Shown: one piece after another, positions 54,231 through 63,724 of the stretch
Layout: each line of letters opens with the position of its first letter
Numbering within the stretch: position 1 is the stretch's first letter
Assembly (NCBI GenBank): GCA_903875575.1
Contig: CAIQWJ010000005.1
Coordinates: 62,001-126,000, forward strand
Length of the DNA: 64,000 nt
From: an uncultured Acidobacteriia bacterium
GTDB lineage: Bacteria; Acidobacteriota; Terriglobia; Bryobacterales; Bryobacteraceae
Direction of reading: 5' to 3'
Notes under the pieces: generated by a model
Told to the model about the DNA's origin: nothing
What the model saw: the letters and a program-made list of their open reading frames with translations, nothing else
Databases searched by the model: none
Position numbers and translations under genes: made by a program

Positions 54231-54725
54231 TTGAGATATTTCATTACGTTCGCGTGCTATGGTGCCCACCTGCACGGCGATGATTCAGGCGCAGTGGATC
54301 AAAATCACAACCTGTTTGGCGGCCGATTGGTGCAGCCAGATCCTCTTCGCGCCAAGGCGGAGCGTGCGAGGATGCCGCAGCCGCCCTATCGGCTTGACGA
54401 GGATGCGCGGGAGGCGGTGCTCTCAGCTTTGCGGCAACACTGCGAACTTCGCGGCTGGAAACTCATGGCCGCACATGTACGGACGAACCATGTGCATGTC
54501 ATTGTGGAGGCCGAAGTGCAGCCGGAGAGGATCTTGATCGAGTTTAAGTCGTACGCCAGCCGGGCGCTGAACCGGTTGGGCCGCGATGGGCCGGATCGAA
54601 GGCGCTGGGCACGGCATGGAAGCACGCGATGGTTATTTCAGGACCACGAGTTCGAGAGCGCCATGCAGTACGTGGTGGAATCGCAGGGCGCGCGGATGGC
54701 GGTTTTCGTGGCAGACGAATATTGA
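54231..54725 (+). CDS. REP-associated tyrosine transposase (RAYT, Y1/HUH family)
   Basis: This 164-residue protein has the HUH nuclease core RTNHVHVIVEAEV (H87 and H89) and the single catalytic Tyr108 in FKSYASRALNRLG. FITFACYGAHLHG at the N-terminus and RWARHGSTRWLFQDHEFESAMQYVVESQG at the end fit RAYT proteins. It uses a TTG start. REP sequences lie on both sides (54104, 54206 inverted, 54724), the signature arrangement of a RAYT domesticated from IS200/IS605-like transposases. RAYTs cut single-stranded REP DNA and spread or maintain REPs. Confidence 0.82.
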   Translation: MRYFITFACYGAHLHGDDSGAVDQNHNLFGGRLVQPDPLRAKAERARMPQPPYRLDEDAREAVLSALRQHCELRGWKLMAAHVRTNHVHVIVEAEVQPERILIEFKSYASRALNRLGRDGPDRRRWARHGSTRWLFQDHEFESAMQYVVESQGARMAVFVADEY

Positions 54726-56754: not shown

Positions 56755-57660
56755 TTAATTGCTGGTCGGGATTGTCTCGATGTGATCGATGACCAGGGTA
56801 TCCAGCAAAAAGCCTTTCGATTTCACGAGCCTCAGGCCCAGTTGTTTCTGGACTGCGGTAAAGATGTCCGGGAAACTGCCGTTGTCAAAATTCATTGAGG
56901 TGGCCGCACCCACAGGGCCAATAGTTACATTGCCGAGGCGGGGGTTGAATTTGAGTTTGAAGTCATATTTGCCGGTCAGGCCAGTCTTGTCCGCAATGTA
57001 TCTTGGCGATCCATCCGACCCACTCACGAAATGGCGAAGGCGGTCGGCAATAAAATCGGGGATAGTGTAGCTCTTAGCCGTGACCTGTTCACCGTCAGGA
57101 CCCATGCCGATGGCCGAGCCGTGGCCGGGTGGCAGCACGAGGAATCCGTCAGGATCGCGTTCTCCACTGGCTCCAAAAATAGGATCCGGGGCATCGGGGT
57201 CAGCCGATTGTTTGAGTTTTGGGTCACCGGGCGCTACGACCAGTTCGTAGCCTGGAAGCATCCGGTTTTCGTGGTGGAGTCTGAGCTGAAACCGCTCGAT
57301 CAGAAGGTTTTGGAGCATCAGTCGAAATTCCGCCTTCGTGGTTTCGGGCGGCATCGTCACCTCAATCGCGTAGGACGGTCCACGTGCGATGAGCGGGGTT
57401 CTACTGATGATCCGATACTCCTCAACGTCCCAGGCCTTCATGATCAGTTGCTGCAGCGTGGTGAGCCCCCATCTCATGCGGCCAGGTTCGCTGGTGCCGG
57501 GGCCGCCTTTCATCTGGAGTAGACCTGGGACGATAGGGCCTTTGACGTAGATCTTCACGGAGGCCGCGTCAAACGTTGGGTGTGCGTTTTGAGCTAGCGC
57601 GGCGCTTAGGGCGAGGGTGAGGCTGGCAATCAGCCGGGAGATTCGTCTCATTTGGTTCAT
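56755..57660 (-). CDS. TIGR03435-family protein
   Basis: This 301-residue protein has a signal peptide (RISRLIASLTLALSAALAQ) and the family blocks HPTFDAASVKIYVKGP, LRWGLTTLQQLIMKAWDVEEY, LLIERFQLRLHHENRMLPGYELVVAPG and IADKTGLTGKYDFKLKF. The end DTLVIDHIETIPTSN is the conserved C-terminal signature. It is the last of five family members in the window and is convergent with nothing; the topoisomerase-helicase gene is divergent. Confidence 0.86.
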   Translation of the reverse strand: MNQMRRISRLIASLTLALSAALAQNAHPTFDAASVKIYVKGPIVPGLLQMKGGPGTSEPGRMRWGLTTLQQLIMKAWDVEEYRIISRTPLIARGPSYAIEVTMPPETTKAEFRLMLQNLLIERFQLRLHHENRMLPGYELVVAPGDPKLKQSADPDAPDPIFGASGERDPDGFLVLPPGHGSAIGMGPDGEQVTAKSYTIPDFIADRLRHFVSGSDGSPRYIADKTGLTGKYDFKLKFNPRLGNVTIGPVGAATSMNFDNGSFPDIFTAVQKQLGLRLVKSKGFLLDTLVIDHIETIPTSN

Positions 57661-57763: not shown

Positions 57764-60700
57764 ATGAGCTTGAGCAACGAGTTGGGGGAATCGGTCGCCG
57801 GGGCAGTAGCGGTTCTGGCTGAGAAGCCTTCGGTCGCCCGTGATATCGCCAAGGTGCTCGGGGCCAACACCAAGGGCGATGGCTACCTGCATGGCAACGG
57901 CTACATTGTCACGTGGGCCATCGGACACCTGGCGTCGCTGGCACAACCTCACGAAATTCGCGCGGAATGGAAGTTCTGGCGGCGGGACCAACTGCCCATG
58001 CTGCCGGTTGACTGGCCTCTGGTCGTTTACGACAAAACCAAAGATCAGTTTGATGTCGTCCGGAAGATTCTCGCTTCGCCGCGCGTGGGCCGCGTCATCT
58101 GCGCGACGGACGCGGGGCGCGAGGGCGAACTCATCTTCCGCTACATCTACGAAGCTGCGGGCTGTTCGAAGCCGATCAGTCGGCTTTGGATTTCGTCGCT
58201 CACGCCGGAGGCCATCCGCAAGGGCTTCGCCGCCGTGAAGCCGGGCGCGGACTACGAGCCGCTGGCGGATGCCGCGCGTGGGCGCAGTCGGGCTGATTGG
58301 CTGGTCGGGATGAACCTCTCGCGCGCCTACACGCTGGCTTACGGGGATGTTTTGAGCGTGGGTCGCGTACAGACGCCGACGCTGGCCATGGTGGTGGAGC
58401 GGGAACTGGCGGTGCGTCGTTTCGTGCCGGAAGATTACCTGGAAGTGGTGGCGACGTTTCGTCCGTCGGAGCGGCCTGAGGGGGAGAGTTACAAGGGCAC
58501 ATGGGTTCGGGATACGGCGGAGATTCAGAAATCTTCGCGGCTGCCGGCCGTGGGTGCGGATGGCGGTGTGGAAGCGGCGCAGATTGTGGAACGGGCGAAG
58601 ACGGGTGCCGCCGCAATTGAGTCGGTGAAGGCCGAGACGCAGCGCATGGGGCCGCCGCCGCTTTACGATCTCACAGAGTTGCAGCGTCATGCGAACCGGC
58701 TGTTCGGGTTTAGCGCGCAGCACACGCTGGATACGGCGCAGACCTTGTATGAGCGGCACAAGCTGATCAGTTATCCGCGTACCGACAGCCGTCACTTGTC
58801 GCACGATGTGGCGGCAACGGTGGGCGGGATTGTGGATGCGGTGTCGGGTCCTTATCGCGCGTTGCTGGCTCCGGGTACGGGCGAGAAGCCGCTGGGGAAG
58901 CGGTACGTCGATGACACGAAGGTCACGGACCACCATGCGATTATTCCCACGGTGACGTCGCCGGGTCGTGTGAGCCTGTCGCCGGATGAGGCGAAGCTCT
59001 ACGACCTGGTTTGCCGTCGCTTTCTTTCCTGCTGGCATGAGGATCACATCTGGCAGGTGACGACGGTGATTACGGCCATTGTGAATGGTGCGATCACGGA
59101 CCGGTATCACTCGTCGGGGAAAGCGATCCAGCAGGTTGGGTGGAAGGTGCTGGATTTCCAGACGGAGAAGAAGAAAGCCGGGAAGAAGAAGGCTGGCGAC
59201 GAGGGGCAGGAAGAAGAGCAGGCGTTGCCGGCTGGGTTGGCGCGCGGGCAGGCGCAGGATGTGCTGGATGCCGAGGCGGTGCGGAAGAAGACGCGCGCAC
59301 CGAAGCGGTTTACGGAAGCCACGCTGCTGACGGCGATGGAGACGGCGGGGAAGACGCTCGATGAGAAAGAGCTGTCGGATGCGATGAAAGAGACCGGACT
59401 GGGGACGCCGGCCACGAGGGCTTCGATTATTGAGACGCTGCTGAAGCGCGAGTATATTGTGCGGCAGGCGAAGAATCTGGAGGCTACCGATAAGGGGATT
59501 CAGCTGATTGAGGTGGTGCATCCGGAGGTAAAGAGTCCGGCGATGACGGGGCAGTGGGAAGCGTATCTGAAGCAGATCCAGCGGGGTGAGGCGGAGTTGG
59601 GGCCGTTTGTACGCGGGATTGAGGATTACGTGCGGGGGGTGGTGGGGAAGGTGGGGCAGTTGCCGGCGGCACCTCGGCAGAATAACGGCGGGGCGGCGAA
59701 TCGGCCGGGTGGGTACAGTTCGGATGGAGCGAGGGATGCTGCCCCACGCGTTGCGCCTGCCGCGCGCGCCACGCCCGTGAAGACGGGGGCGATGACTGAA
59801 CCTGTGATCGCCGTCAGCGGCGAGCCCCTGGACGCGCTGCTGCATCGCGCCTTCGGTTTCCCGGCGTTTCGCGCGAATCAGGAAGAAGTCTGCCGCACGA
59901 TTATCGCGGGGCGCGACGCGTTGCTCGTCATGCCTACGGGCGCGGGCAAATCACTCTGCTACCAACTGCCGGGGCTGGCGCTCGGCGGCACTACGCTGGT
60001 GATCAGTCCGCTGATCGCGCTGATGGAAGATCAATTTGCCAAGCTGCGGGAGCGCGGCTTCGCGGTGGAGTGCATCCATTCCGGGCGCGATCGGGCGGCG
60101 TCGCGGCAGGTCTGTATCGACTACCTGAATGGCAAGCTCCAGTTCCTGTTCATCGCGCCGGAGCGGCTGCGGGTGCCGGGTTTCCCGGAGATGCTGGCGA
60201 AGCGCAAGCCCGCGCTGGTCGCGATTGACGAGGCGCATTGTATCTCGCAATGGGGTCATGATTTCCGTCCGGATTATCGGCTGCTGGGCGGCTATATTCC
60301 CACGCTGCGGCCCGCTCCAGTGATTGCGTTGACTGCCACGGCCACCGGCATTGTGCAGCGCGACATCTGCGCACAGTTGGGCTTTGACGATCAGGCGAGC
60401 TTCATTCACGGCTTCCGGCGATCGAATATCGCGATTGAGGTGGTGGAGACGAGTCCTTCGCAACGGCCTGGGCTGGCGCTGGAATTTCTGGACGACCCTG
60501 AGCGTCGGCCCGCCATTATTTACACGCCGAGCCGCAAGCAGGCGGAGAGCGTTGCCGCGCTGCTGGCGACGAAGTATCCGACGGCGGCGTATCATGCGGG
60601 GCTGGATGCCGAGCGGCGGCGGCGCGTGCAGGATCAGTTCCTGAACGGGAAGCTGGAAGTGGTGGTGGCGACCATCGCGTTCGGGATGGGAATTGACAAG

Positions 60701-61906
60701 GCAAACATTCGGTCGGTGATGCATACGGCGCTGCCGGGGAGCGTGGAAGCTTATTACCAGGAGATTGGCCGCGCGGGTCGCGATGGCGAGCCGAGTCGGG
60801 CGATTCTCATGCATTCGTATGCCGACCGCCATACGCATGATTTCTTTTTTGAGCGCGATTACCCGGACGTGAAGGTGCTGGACCAGATTTACGCGAAGCT
60901 GCGCACGGAACCGCAGGATCGTGAAAACGTGGAGCGGTACTGCAAGGTGGGCGCGGACATGTTCGCGAAGGCTCTGGAGAAACTGTGGACGCATGGAGGC
61001 GTGACGGTGGATGCGGCGGAGAATCTGACGCGCGGGGCGGCGGACTGGCGCGATTCCTACATCGCGCAGGGGGAACAGAAGCAGGCGCAGATTGAGGCGA
61101 TGATCCGGTATGCGCAGAGCAGCCAGTGCCGGATGTCGAGCCTGGTGCGGCATTTTGGCGATACGGCGGACAGCCAGAAGCCATGCGGGATTTGCGATTT
61201 CTGCGCGCCGGACCAGTGCGTGGCGCAGACGTTCCGGTCGGCGAATGAGACGGAGAAGACCGTGGCGCGCGGGGTGTTGGATTCGATCACGATGACGGGC
61301 CGGTCCGTGGGGCAGTTGCATACGCAGCTTTGTTCCGGGAACGGGATGGATCGCGACGCGTTCGAGGAATTGATGGGGGCGATGGCGCGCGCCGGGCTGG
61401 TGAAGCTGGTGGAGGCGGTGTTCGAGAAGGACGGCAAGCAGATCCCGTTCCGCAAGGTGAGCCTGACGCGCGACGGCGGCGATCTGGACGAGGACACGCC
61501 GATCGAGCTGGAGATTCGCGGGATGGCGGATCCAACTAAGGGCGTTGGGGCGGGACGAAGAAAACCGACCGGTGCGGCGAAGAAGCCGGCGAAGAAGGCA
61601 AAGAAGAAGACAGCGGCACGCAGCCGGACCGCCGAGGCGGATCCTTTCGAAATGGCGGTAGAGGAACCGGCTCCCAAGGCCGCCGACTCGAAGGCCGCCG
61701 TACTGCTCAAGGAATGGCGTCGGGCTCAGGCAAAGAAGCTTGGGGTGCCGAGCTTCCGGGTGATGTCCGACCGGGTGCTCCACGCGATTGCCGACGACCA
61801 GCCTGCGAATCTGGCGGAGTTGATGGCAATTCCGGGGATCGGCCTGAAGACGGTGGAGAAGTACGGGGCGCAGATTTACAAGATTCTGGACCAGGCCCGG
61901 CGATGA
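57764..61906 (+). CDS. Fusion of DNA topoisomerase III and RecQ helicase
   Basis: This 1380-residue protein joins two complete enzymes. Residues 1-620 are topoisomerase III: the Toprim domain (VLAEKPSVARDIAKVLG, ATDAGREGELIFRYIYE with D116), LVGMNLSRAYT, VGRVQTPTLA and the catalytic Tyr337 in LISYPRTDS. A Pro/Ala-rich linker follows. From about residue 690 comes RecQ: Walker A MPTGAGKS (K729), DEAH at 822-825, SRKQAESVAALLATKYPTA, TIAFGMGIDKANIRSVMHT, the Zn site C-x18-C-x2-C-x2-C, an RQC winged helix, a Lys-rich linker and a C-terminal HRDC domain (PANLAELMAIPGIGLKTVEKYG). The two enzymes normally act together to dissolve double Holliday junctions and process late replication forms. There is no stop or frameshift. 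Confidence 0.93.
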   Translation: MSLSNELGESVAGAVAVLAEKPSVARDIAKVLGANTKGDGYLHGNGYIVTWAIGHLASLAQPHEIRAEWKFWRRDQLPMLPVDWPLVVYDKTKDQFDVVRKILASPRVGRVICATDAGREGELIFRYIYEAAGCSKPISRLWISSLTPEAIRKGFAAVKPGADYEPLADAARGRSRADWLVGMNLSRAYTLAYGDVLSVGRVQTPTLAMVVERELAVRRFVPEDYLEVVATFRPSERPEGESYKGTWVRDTAEIQKSSRLPAVGADGGVEAAQIVERAKTGAAAIESVKAETQRMGPPPLYDLTELQRHANRLFGFSAQHTLDTAQTLYERHKLISYPRTDSRHLSHDVAATVGGIVDAVSGPYRALLAPGTGEKPLGKRYVDDTKVTDHHAIIPTVTSPGRVSLSPDEAKLYDLVCRRFLSCWHEDHIWQVTTVITAIVNGAITDRYHSSGKAIQQVGWKVLDFQTEKKKAGKKKAGDEGQEEEQALPAGLARGQAQDVLDAEAVRKKTRAPKRFTEATLLTAMETAGKTLDEKELSDAMKETGLGTPATRASIIETLLKREYIVRQAKNLEATDKGIQLIEVVHPEVKSPAMTGQWEAYLKQIQRGEAELGPFVRGIEDYVRGVVGKVGQLPAAPRQNNGGAANRPGGYSSDGARDAAPRVAPAARATPVKTGAMTEPVIAVSGEPLDALLHRAFGFPAFRANQEEVCRTIIAGRDALLVMPTGAGKSLCYQLPGLALGGTTLVISPLIALMEDQFAKLRERGFAVECIHSGRDRAASRQVCIDYLNGKLQFLFIAPERLRVPGFPEMLAKRKPALVAIDEAHCISQWGHDFRPDYRLLGGYIPTLRPAPVIALTATATGIVQRDICAQLGFDDQASFIHGFRRSNIAIEVVETSPSQRPGLALEFLDDPERRPAIIYTPSRKQAESVAALLATKYPTAAYHAGLDAERRRRVQDQFLNGKLEVVVATIAFGMGIDKANIRSVMHTALPGSVEAYYQEIGRAGRDGEPSRAILMHSYADRHTHDFFFERDYPDVKVLDQIYAKLRTEPQDRENVERYCKVGADMFAKALEKLWTHGGVTVDAAENLTRGAADWRDSYIAQGEQKQAQIEAMIRYAQSSQCRMSSLVRHFGDTADSQKPCGICDFCAPDQCVAQTFRSANETEKTVARGVLDSITMTGRSVGQLHTQLCSGNGMDRDAFEELMGAMARAGLVKLVEAVFEKDGKQIPFRKVSLTRDGGDLDEDTPIELEIRGMADPTKGVGAGRRKPTGAAKKPAKKAKKKTAARSRTAEADPFEMAVEEPAPKAADSKAAVLLKEWRRAQAKKLGVPSFRVMSDRVLHAIADDQPANLAELMAIPGIGLKTVEKYGAQIYKILDQARR

Positions 61907-61975: not shown

Positions 61976-62527
61976 ATGTTCAAAACAAAAAAAGAACAAG
62001 CCGTTGCCGCTGACGCCAGTCATGGCGATTCGGCGGTCGTGACAGGTCAATATACCAGTGGCGACGTGGCGCGGATCGCGGATGTGAGTCTGCGACAGCT
62101 CCAGTGGTGGGATGAGCGAAATGTCGTTTCGCCCCAGCAGGAAGGCCATCGGCGTGTGTACCGGGAGCAGGAAGTGGTGGAGGTTTCGGTGATTGCCGAG
62201 CTGCGCCGCAAAGGCTTTTCCCTCCAGAAGATTCGCCGTGTACTGAAGTTTCTTCAGAAGGAAATGGGCCGTCGGCTGGCCGATGCGGTGGCGGAAAACA
62301 GCGATATCCATCTGATCACGGACGGCAAGAATATCTATCTGGAAGACCGTCCGGACCGGATCATCGATGTTTTGAAGAACGCGAAGCAGCCGATGTTTCT
62401 TGTTTGCGTGACGGACCAGTGGCGTCGCTTCCAGCCGGGTGTCACCGTGAGCCGGAAGCCAGTTCGCAGCGCTGCAGCCAGCAGTGCTCAGGCGGCCACT
62501 CCCGCGCAAAAGACCAAACTCGGCTAA
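61976..62527 (+). CDS. MerR-family transcriptional regulator
   Basis: This 183-residue protein has an N-terminal MerR helix-turn-helix: YTSGDVARIADVSLRQLQWWDERNVV, HRRVYREQEVVEVSVIAELRRKGFSLQKIRRVL. The second half (RLADAVAENSDIHLITDGKNIYLEDRPDRIIDVLKNAKQPMFLVCV) is not a known effector domain and lacks the Cys residues of metal sensors. It may sense a small molecule or a protein. It starts 69 bp after the topoisomerase-helicase gene, in the same direction. Its targets are not evident. Confidence 0.84.
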   Translation: MFKTKKEQAVAADASHGDSAVVTGQYTSGDVARIADVSLRQLQWWDERNVVSPQQEGHRRVYREQEVVEVSVIAELRRKGFSLQKIRRVLKFLQKEMGRRLADAVAENSDIHLITDGKNIYLEDRPDRIIDVLKNAKQPMFLVCVTDQWRRFQPGVTVSRKPVRSAAASSAQAATPAQKTKLG

Positions 62528-62545
62528 CGGCCGGGTGGCTTCACA

Positions 62546-63724
62546 GTGAACATTCCTATTTCACTTCTTTGGCTGGCTCCGCTCATCGGGCTGGTCGCCG
62601 GATCGGTCGCGTATTGCGGTCTGGCGATTCTGGCGGCTTTCCACTACCGGAAGTCCGGCGCACCAAAGCTGACGAAGTTCCCGCCGGTTTCCGTGCTGCG
62701 CCCGATGGCGGGAGATCGCGACAATACCGAAGCTGGCCTGCGGTCGGTGTTTGAACAGGACTATCCGGTTTTTGAAGTCATCCTGGGAGTGGCGTCGCCG
62801 GAAGATGCCGCAGTCCCGATCGCGCGGCGGCTGATGGCGGAATATCCGAATCGACCGTCGCGACTGGTTTTCAGCGGCGATTCGCCTTATCCGAATCGAA
62901 AGGTCTGGCAGTTGCGCGCGCTGTGGGATGAAGCTCGTTACGAGACGATCGTGATGGCGGACAGCGATATTCGCTGGGCTCCGAATTGCCTGAAAACGGT
63001 TGTGTCCGAACTCACGCAGGAGGGAGTGGCGCTGGTGACGTGCCCCTACAGGGCGACGGCGGGGCCGAGCCGGTGGTCACAGATGGAAGCGTTGGGACTG
63101 AATACGGACTTCATTTCCGGCATGCTGACGGCACGAATGCTCAATGGCATGGATTACGCGATCGGCTGCACTTTGGCCACGCGGCGGGCTGAGATTGAAG
63201 CGATCGGCGGCCTGCAAGGAGTGCAGCCGTATCTTTCGGAAGATTTTGTGATCGGCAACCGGTTGCACCACCTGGGCCGAACGGTGATCCTGTCGCGGTC
63301 GGTGATTGAGCACTACATTGGCAACGATTCGATCCGTGCCAGCTGGAGCCATCGGCTGCGGTGGGCGCGCGGTTCACGGCGTTCGCGGCCGGCCGGGTAT
63401 GTGGGCGAGGTGTTCACGAAGCCTACAGTACCGGCAGTAGCGTTGTTGGTCCTGGCTCCCGGTTGGGGCGCTGTGGCCGGACTGGCGGTGGCGGCGCTGG
63501 TGATGCGACTGGCGGTGGTGTGGACGGCGTCGTCACTGGTACTGGAAGATCGCGAGATGAAGCGGCGCTGGTGGCTGCTGCCCATGGAGGATATCTCCAC
63601 GTTTACGGTGTGGGCGCTGGGCTTCTTCGGCAATAAACTGGTGTGGCGGGGCCACGAACTGATTATTCAGCGGGACGGCACGGTGCTCACGCCGGAGCCT
63701 GCTACTTCTTCAGCGCTTCAATAA
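62546..63724 (+). CDS. Family 2 glycosyltransferase, ceramide-glucosyltransferase/HpnI-like
   Basis: This 392-residue membrane protein has an N-terminal transmembrane segment ([26 protein letters not shown]). A GT-A domain follows, with [32 protein letters not shown], the D2-like [10 protein letters not shown] and the C-terminal [12 protein letters not shown] plus [20 protein letters not shown], an (R/Q)xxRW-type motif. Two further hydrophobic segments lie at the end. This is the GT21-like arrangement of ceramide glucosyltransferase and of HpnI in hopanoid modification. The acceptor is probably a lipid. Its last 23 bp overlap the convergent etfA gene. Confidence 0.82.

Follow-up and report, generated by a model that had tools for sequence, protein, structure and literature searches.

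A topoisomerase III and a RecQ helicase encoded as one polypeptide in Acidobacteriota and Myxococcota

Introduction

The helicases of the RecQ family unwind DNA with 3′-5′ polarity. Escherichia coli RecQ and topoisomerase III (TopB) have been said to "interact functionally, but not physically" (PMC3905885), and a review that discusses the pair finds little support for the idea that the two resolve recombination intermediates together, with evidence for a toposome lacking and the genetics disputed (PMC7140829). In yeast, Top3–Rmi1 binds the disordered N-terminus of the RecQ helicase Sgs1 (PMC3905885). Here we describe a gene that joins the two enzymes covalently: a topB–recQ fusion found in a stretch of 64,000 nucleotides from an uncultured Acidobacteriia bacterium (assembly GCA_903875575.1, contig CAIQWJ010000005.1, positions 62,001 to 126,000 of the forward strand), referred to below as the window.

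Like the Sgs1–Top3–Rmi1 and BLM–TOP3A–RMI1–RMI2 complexes, as far as these are described in the sources cited, the fusion pairs a RecQ helicase with a topoisomerase III and has the topoisomerase on the N-terminal side of the helicase. The physical joining of the two that marks a dissolvasome is here covalent and in one frame, whereas the eukaryotic dissolvasome is non-covalent and contains the OB-fold partner RMI1, which was not searched for here. Compared with the separate E. coli proteins, which belong to the same two enzyme families, the fusion is covalent, lacks the Cys-rich tail of TopB and carries an inserted segment in RecQ. Reverse gyrase also combines a superfamily 2 (SF2) motor with a type IA topoisomerase in one chain (PMC8185306), but its domain order is the opposite, its motor is of a different family, and the fusion scores below the cut-off of the corresponding model.

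A weaker hint of pairing comes from a Listeria record (L072), where recQ and topB are neighbors on one strand, 23 bases apart, although in the order opposite to that of the fusion and as two proteins, each about 41-43% identical to the fusion where they align. This record is labeled plasmid 3 (594 kb) yet carries guaB as well as recQ and topB, and thus resembles a chromosomal fragment. No report of a TopB–RecQ fusion was found among the listed titles and abstract openings of a mostly open-access literature without bioRxiv preprints, database annotations being outside its scope; as far as that literature goes, the fusion is a new form of the known RecQ–topoisomerase III partnership.

Results

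Two complete enzymes in one frame

The fusion gene runs without interruption for 1380 codons from an ATG at 57764 to a stop codon at 61904-61906, and encodes a complete TopB (residues 16-614) followed by a complete RecQ (residues 704-1374). A first-pass annotation had claimed both enzymes in a single uninterrupted frame, and Pfam and NCBIfam matches bear this out. Its placement of Tyr337 agrees with an alignment with E. coli topoisomerase III and that of Lys729 with an alignment of the fusions; the Toprim domain, zinc site and HRDC domain that it named all have Pfam matches, and its DEAH motif lies at residues 822-825. Full-length orthologues in one frame, 57-84% identical over nearly their entire length, occur in many genomes, which places the fusion beyond chance. 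The observation of a TopB–RecQ fusion is thereby confirmed.

The TopB half scores 589.8 bits against the topB model TIGR01056 (curated cut-off 515.75). Its best match by sequence among solved structures is E. coli topoisomerase III (308 bits), and its predicted fold matches 1d6m (Z 44.7, 580 residues, rmsd 3.1). The reverse gyrase model TIGR01054 reaches only 109.6 bits against a cut-off of 471.7, with its best stretch confined to the topoisomerase half. For this and other structural comparisons, the VIA-align matches comprise the best chains only, so that the absence of other folds there is uninformative.

The RecQ half is a member of the RecQ family by TIGR00614 (380.9 bits, curated cut-off 219.8), but falls below the cut-off of TIGR01389, the model for classic RecQ (486.5 bits against 640.2). 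By sequence its best match among solved structures is E. coli RecQ (320 bits), and by fold the D. radiodurans RecQ core (Z 30.7, 469 residues, rmsd 6.7). Between the matched helicase core and the zinc site there are about 85 residues, versus about 20 in E. coli RecQ, and this inserted segment is filled in every one of 94 distinct fusions (defined below). The RQC domain claimed in the first-pass annotation has no Pfam match anywhere in the fusion protein; what stands of that claim is a winged helix at the RQC position in the structure model (elements H502-514, H522-530, H537-549, E553-562 and E565-574), a region that the fold match to the D. radiodurans core spans. The winged-helix region is filled in 93 of the 94 fusions and the HRDC region in 87.

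Table 1. Features of the fusion gene, its neighborhood and its decayed relatives. Coordinates are those of the window unless a locus is named; aa, residues of the fusion protein.
Feature	Coordinates	Strand	Basis
topB–recQ fusion gene, 1380 aa	57764..61906	+	single open frame, domains, one-frame orthologues
Toprim domain (aa 16-145)	57809..58198	+	Pfam PF01751; alignment with E. coli topoisomerase III
Topoisomerase IA core, Topoisom_bac (aa 164-614)	58253..59605	+	Pfam PF01131, 360.6 bits
Active-site Tyr337 in YPRTD	58772..58774	+	aligned with YPR motif of E. coli topoisomerase III
Variable Ala/Pro/Gly-rich linker, predicted disordered (aa 629-688)	59648..59827	+	identity, pLDDT, CxxC count
RecQ RecA-like domain 1, DEAD (aa 704-861)	59873..60346	+	Pfam PF00270
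Walker A Lys729	59948..59950	+	Lys in 94/94 distinct intact fusions
DEAH box (aa 822-825)	60227..60238	+	identical in 94/94
RecQ RecA-like domain 2, Helicase_C (aa 911-1008)	60494..60787	+	Pfam PF00271
Inserted helical, perhaps winged-helix-like segment (about aa 1031-1098)	60854..61057	+	gap in PDB alignment, model secondary structure
RecQ zinc-binding domain (aa 1102-1147), Cys 1122, 1141, 1144, 1147	61067..61204	+	Pfam PF16124; Cys in 94/94
Winged helix at RQC position (aa 1162-1252)	61247..61519	+	structure model only
Lys/Ala-rich disordered second linker (about aa 1258-1305)	61535..61678	+	pLDDT <50
HRDC domain (aa 1315-1374)	61706..61885	+	Pfam PF00570, 58.5 bits, cut-off 23.8
IS200-like (Y1_Tnp) transposase-related gene	54231-54725	+	
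DUF3738 protein gene	56758-57660	-	
MerR-type regulator and family 21 glycosyltransferase genes	61976-63724	+	
Decayed-RecQ relatives	L082:1928-4552, L083:1528-4221, L135:2-2626		TopB intact

Both active sites are conserved

For conservation we used 94 distinct fusions, the window copy (L013) among them. Coverage of both halves was required, so that the set consists of intact fusions: copies truncated by a contig end or carrying a frameshift (e.g., L078, L079, L126 and L138), those that repeated a longer locus, and the decayed-RecQ loci of Table 1 were left out. All 21 active-site and zinc-site residues that we checked are invariant in the 94. On the TopB side these are the Toprim residues E20, D116 and E120, the active-site Tyr337, Arg339, and G118, which occupies the second acidic position of the Toprim DxD motif (D116+2), an Asp in E. 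coli; the DAGRE motif belonged to one of two search patterns used, patterns that also recovered separate TopBs. On the RecQ side they are Q706, K729, S730, D822, E823, A824, H825, T857, Q999, R1003 and R1006 together with cysteines 1122, 1141, 1144 and 1147, so that the Walker A, DEAH, motif VI and Cys4 zinc-site residues of the RecQ family are present throughout.

Relative to the window copy, identity averages 65-75% across the TopB parts, 73% across the helicase core and 42-43% across the winged-helix and HRDC regions. In comparisons with eight relatives, dS is high and near saturation, so the dN/dS values are only rough: 0.07-0.10 for TopB (undefined in one comparison), 0.03-0.11 across the helicase and zinc site together and 0.12-0.29 in the winged helix. 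Where a value could be obtained, HRDC gave 0.07-0.21 and the linker 0.40-0.52, the latter in four of the eight comparisons. By these estimates both halves are under purifying selection.

A linker predicted to be disordered, and no Cys-rich tail

The first-pass annotation described a linker of about 60 residues rich in Pro, Ala and Gly, and counting gives 13 Ala, 8 Pro and 8 Gly among the 60 residues at about 629-688. Its mean identity to the window copy across the 94 fusions is 15%, versus 65-75% in the flanking domains, and pLDDT is below 50 at residues 634-685 of the predicted structure.

Cys-rich tails, which presumably bind DNA, are common in TopB rather than defining for it. The separate TopBs in our collection carry a tail after the TGxWE motif with a median length of 155 residues, and 43 of 51 have a CxxC motif there, whereas none of the 94 fusions has a CxxC between the TGxWE motif and RecQ: the Cys-rich tail is absent. 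The 51 are what remained of 61 RecQ-less TopB frames scoring above 300 bits and reaching past residue 600, after removal of 10 named frames that were contig-cut, frameshifted, duplicates or derived from fusions; a few that were kept (e.g., L151) may be contig-cut, and all were gathered by similarity to the fusions rather than sampled at random. We infer that the task of holding DNA passed from this tail to RecQ. One separate Acidobacteriota TopB (L194:1693-4881, + strand) has a 1063-residue frame with a tail of 434 residues that contains 18 Cys and five CxxC.

Distribution

The first-pass annotation proposed looking for the fusion in other genomes, and we find it in Acidobacteriota and elsewhere. 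Of 151 genomes compared, namely the window genome and 150 relatives, 62 contain a TopB over the cut-off, and in 53 of these it is part of one fused frame of 1284-1542 residues. Six of the other nine appear to be cut by contig ends (G004, G033, G041, G078, G086 and G112; for G041, G078 and G086 this was judged from match coordinates), and two (G037 and G092) are frameshifted between the halves; the ninth, G035, is discussed below. A frameshifted copy also exists in G084. No second TopB over the cut-off was present in any of the 62, although G020 and G106 hold short further matches below it, so the fused type is the cell's TopB there. When ten fusion genomes were searched whole, only G546 had another TopB-like match above 35% identity (39%, in a frame of 972 residues).

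For wider sampling we drew genomes from four phyla. An even draw of 396 Acidobacteriota gave 10 genomes with both halves in one frame (in one of the 10, G493, the frame stops before HRDC), along with two with the halves split over contigs (G112 and G390) and two in which the RecQ half is decayed (G385 and G425). The latter two, the genomes of the decayed-RecQ loci of Table 1, have a separate RecQ from that subfamily as well. At least 29 of 235 Myxococcota, the phylum of Nannocystis, have the fusion, in a draw whose center was chosen because it carries it. In both of these draws two candidates were scored per genome. The Planctomycetota (1 of 199) and Pseudomonadota (1 of 398) draws had it in the center genome only, and both of these genomes are metagenome bins, so misbinning is possible. 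Five further genomes of the Planctomycetota draw (G802, G827, G884, G900 and G973, the first four being L244-L247) contain a RecQ of the fusion subfamily alone, 49-51% identical. Among the matches listed, isolate genomes with a fused frame include Nannocystis poenicansa FL3 (complete) and a Corallococcus isolate. Two metagenome-bin titles are perhaps wrong: L159, "Klebsiella pneumoniae", has a divergent TopB, and L114, "Geobacter" (G546), has the fusion and falls in the phylum of Nannocystis.

Some apparently longer proteins were set aside. The N-terminal stretches of two candidate triple fusions (L239, 1990 residues, and L240, 1956 residues) are, as judged by eye, open read-through before the usual TopB start, and in L193 and L195, where RecQ lies within a long frame, the part upstream of it has no TopB match.

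One origin, with probable repeated loss

In a tree of TopB sequences, all 31 fused-type rows group together to the exclusion of 16 separate TopBs, with support of 100/100; the clade appeared in 100% of 200 bootstrap trees, although the bootstrap had not settled. A larger quick tree (62 fused-type and 23 separate rows) again gave one clade, with support of 99. By these trees the fused TopB has one origin, and independent fusions in different phyla are not favored.

The RecQ tree is different in shape. One subfamily, which has both fused and RecQ-only members, is separated from other RecQs as a clade, but within it the two kinds are interleaved, and a topology in which the fused RecQs are a clade of their own was rejected (log-likelihood 303.6 lower, p-AU 5e-58, quick tree). 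The interleaving implies that the fusion was probably broken repeatedly. The simplest reading of the two trees is one fusion, spread between phyla, with repeated loss of one half; the root of the RecQ subfamily shifted between trees, so we make no statement as to which phylum came first. In Myxococcota, RecQ-only genomes often have a separate TopB of about 45% identity (at least 13 genomes, e.g., G592, G568 and G602).

The window genome and the neighborhood of the gene

The window genome (5.98 Mb in 110 contigs, 98.4% complete) has two matches to type IA topoisomerases, TopA (825 residues) and the fusion, and no separate topB was found in it. The fusion is the only TopB found there, but not the only RecQ. 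Its nearest named relatives, among the matches listed, are Bryobacterales (Acidobacteriota) metagenome bins, L115 first.

A DUF3738 protein gene lies upstream of the fusion on the opposite strand, and a transposase-related gene about 3 kb upstream. The MerR-type regulator and glycosyltransferase genes downstream are also found beside the fusion in L014, L017 and L115, out of 49 other fusion loci mostly seen with 1.5-kb flanks. A mobile-element origin was considered and rejected: no single place in the best 5000 plasmid records or in 89 matching phage records covered at least 80% of the query, and none of 48 viral loci had a reported match spanning both halves.

Discussion

We consider it on balance probable that the fusion acts as a one-chain RecQ–topoisomerase III "toposome" that decatenates joint DNA. 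In favor are the completeness of both halves, the invariant catalytic and zinc-site residues, purifying selection in either half, the single clade of fused-type TopB, the lack of a second TopB over the cut-off in the 62 genomes, the missing Cys-rich tail and the parallel with Top3 at the N-terminus of yeast Sgs1. The RecQ part would unwind or branch-migrate joint molecules, supplying single-stranded DNA, and the tethered TopB would cut one strand, pass another and reseal, so that hemicatenanes or precatenanes at double Holliday junctions or converging forks could be undone without nuclease cutting. RecQ would also stand in for the Cys-rich, presumably DNA-binding, tail of most separate TopBs. 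Double Holliday junctions are our most likely guess for the main substrate, and the example of BLM and Sgs1 makes their dissolution the most attractive activity; converging replication forks or precatenanes may be alternatives.

A number of our observations weigh against such a joint machine. The linker, measured between flanking motifs, ranges from 65 to 422 residues among fusions, and the two-half structure model has a pTM of 0.53 and predicts no fixed packing or interface of the halves. The first-pass annotation had proposed that the fusion fixes the ratio and the position of the enzymes; the ratio holds, being covalent and 1:1, but the position does not, given a disordered linker of such variable length and so low a pTM. 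The tether would thus set stoichiometry and proximity (a high local concentration) rather than a rigid geometry, with TopB tethered to the RecQ N-terminus rather than docked. The window genome also encodes a separate RecQ of 526 residues, which has a zinc site and HRDC and shares 33% identity with the RecQ of the fusion. Of the two separate genes whose absence the first-pass annotation proposed to check, topB was not found in this genome and recQ is present. Where TopB is separate, no RecQ-like frame was found in the flanks of any of 47 loci (38 of them with at least 2 kb of flank on both sides). Of 35 Acidobacteriota genomes that carry the RecQ subfamily of the fusion alone, 33 gave no TopB match at E <= 1e-80 (the 35 were hand-picked, and with 26 from one family they are not independent); the other two have a TopB of another type, about 41% identical to that of the window. 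Conversely, L082, L083 and L135 retain an intact TopB followed by a RecQ half that breaks off roughly at the end of its first domain, the DEAH box being gone and Walker A altered in L082 and L083, and G035 has TopB alone, ending just past the start of the linker. Finally, 3 of 19 genomes of the same genus (G001, G011 and G013) showed no TopB over the cut-off. Loss of TopB looks commoner than loss of RecQ, and the coupling of the two can be lost. Either half is missing in some genomes, a second RecQ is present and adjacency is rare, which argues that the fusion is useful rather than essential.

Much of this would also suit two independent enzymes that share a transcript and a chain, the fusion aiding expression or localization while the activities stay uncoupled on any one DNA. 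The long, unconserved linker without a predicted interface, the RecQ-only members interleaved with fused ones and mostly without TopB in the genomes tested, the loci in which one half has decayed and its partner has not, and the lack of gene adjacency all lean that way. We nevertheless think this rather unlikely: the fused state is widely retained across at least two phyla, both halves are constrained, the Cys-rich tail has been lost in the fusions, and a review cites stimulation of E. coli topoisomerase III by RecQ in vitro (PMC7140829). A bolder version of the toposome reading, possible but held only tentatively, sees in the fusion an ancient and widely transferred one-polypeptide bacterial dissolvase working without RMI1 (with the reservation on RMI1 made above), in which RecQ replaces the topoisomerase tail and which is independent of the eukaryotic non-covalent complex.

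The remaining alternatives carry less weight with us. In recombination quality control the topoisomerase would orient or boost RecQ for disruption of D-loops rather than for dissolution, a type of role that the title of one paper claims for human BLM–TOP3A–RMI1–RMI2 (PMC8813930); since the active-site Tyr is retained in all intact fusions, strand passage itself was probably selected, and we regard this alternative as improbable. A reverse-gyrase-like enzyme, whose SF2 motor would power changes in supercoiling by the topoisomerase, seems very improbable in spite of the shared combination of an SF2 helicase-like motor and a type IA topoisomerase (PMC8185306): the domain order is reversed, the score against the reverse gyrase model is far too low, the helicase belongs to RecQ and has the zinc site and HRDC, and the tether is flexible. 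As for a sequencing or assembly artefact joining two neighboring genes, frameshifted copies do exist (G037, G092 and G084), but nothing of the kind was found for the window copy. One frame in 53 of 62 genomes, the Myxococcota isolates (Nannocystis poenicansa, complete, and Corallococcus sp.) and the one-clade origin of the fused TopB show that the fusion is no accident of assembly, and we give this explanation next to no credence.

On whether bacteria use topoisomerase III and RecQ as one machine, the retention of a covalent fusion by at least two phyla, with neither active site lost, provides good evidence for joint action in the bacteria that carry it. The fusion is a single purifiable protein that allows a direct test, and nature has supplied derivatives lacking one half or the other. 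RecQ and topoisomerase III, separate partners elsewhere, are made as one chain in some soil bacteria, which thus offer a natural test of a DNA-untangling machine.

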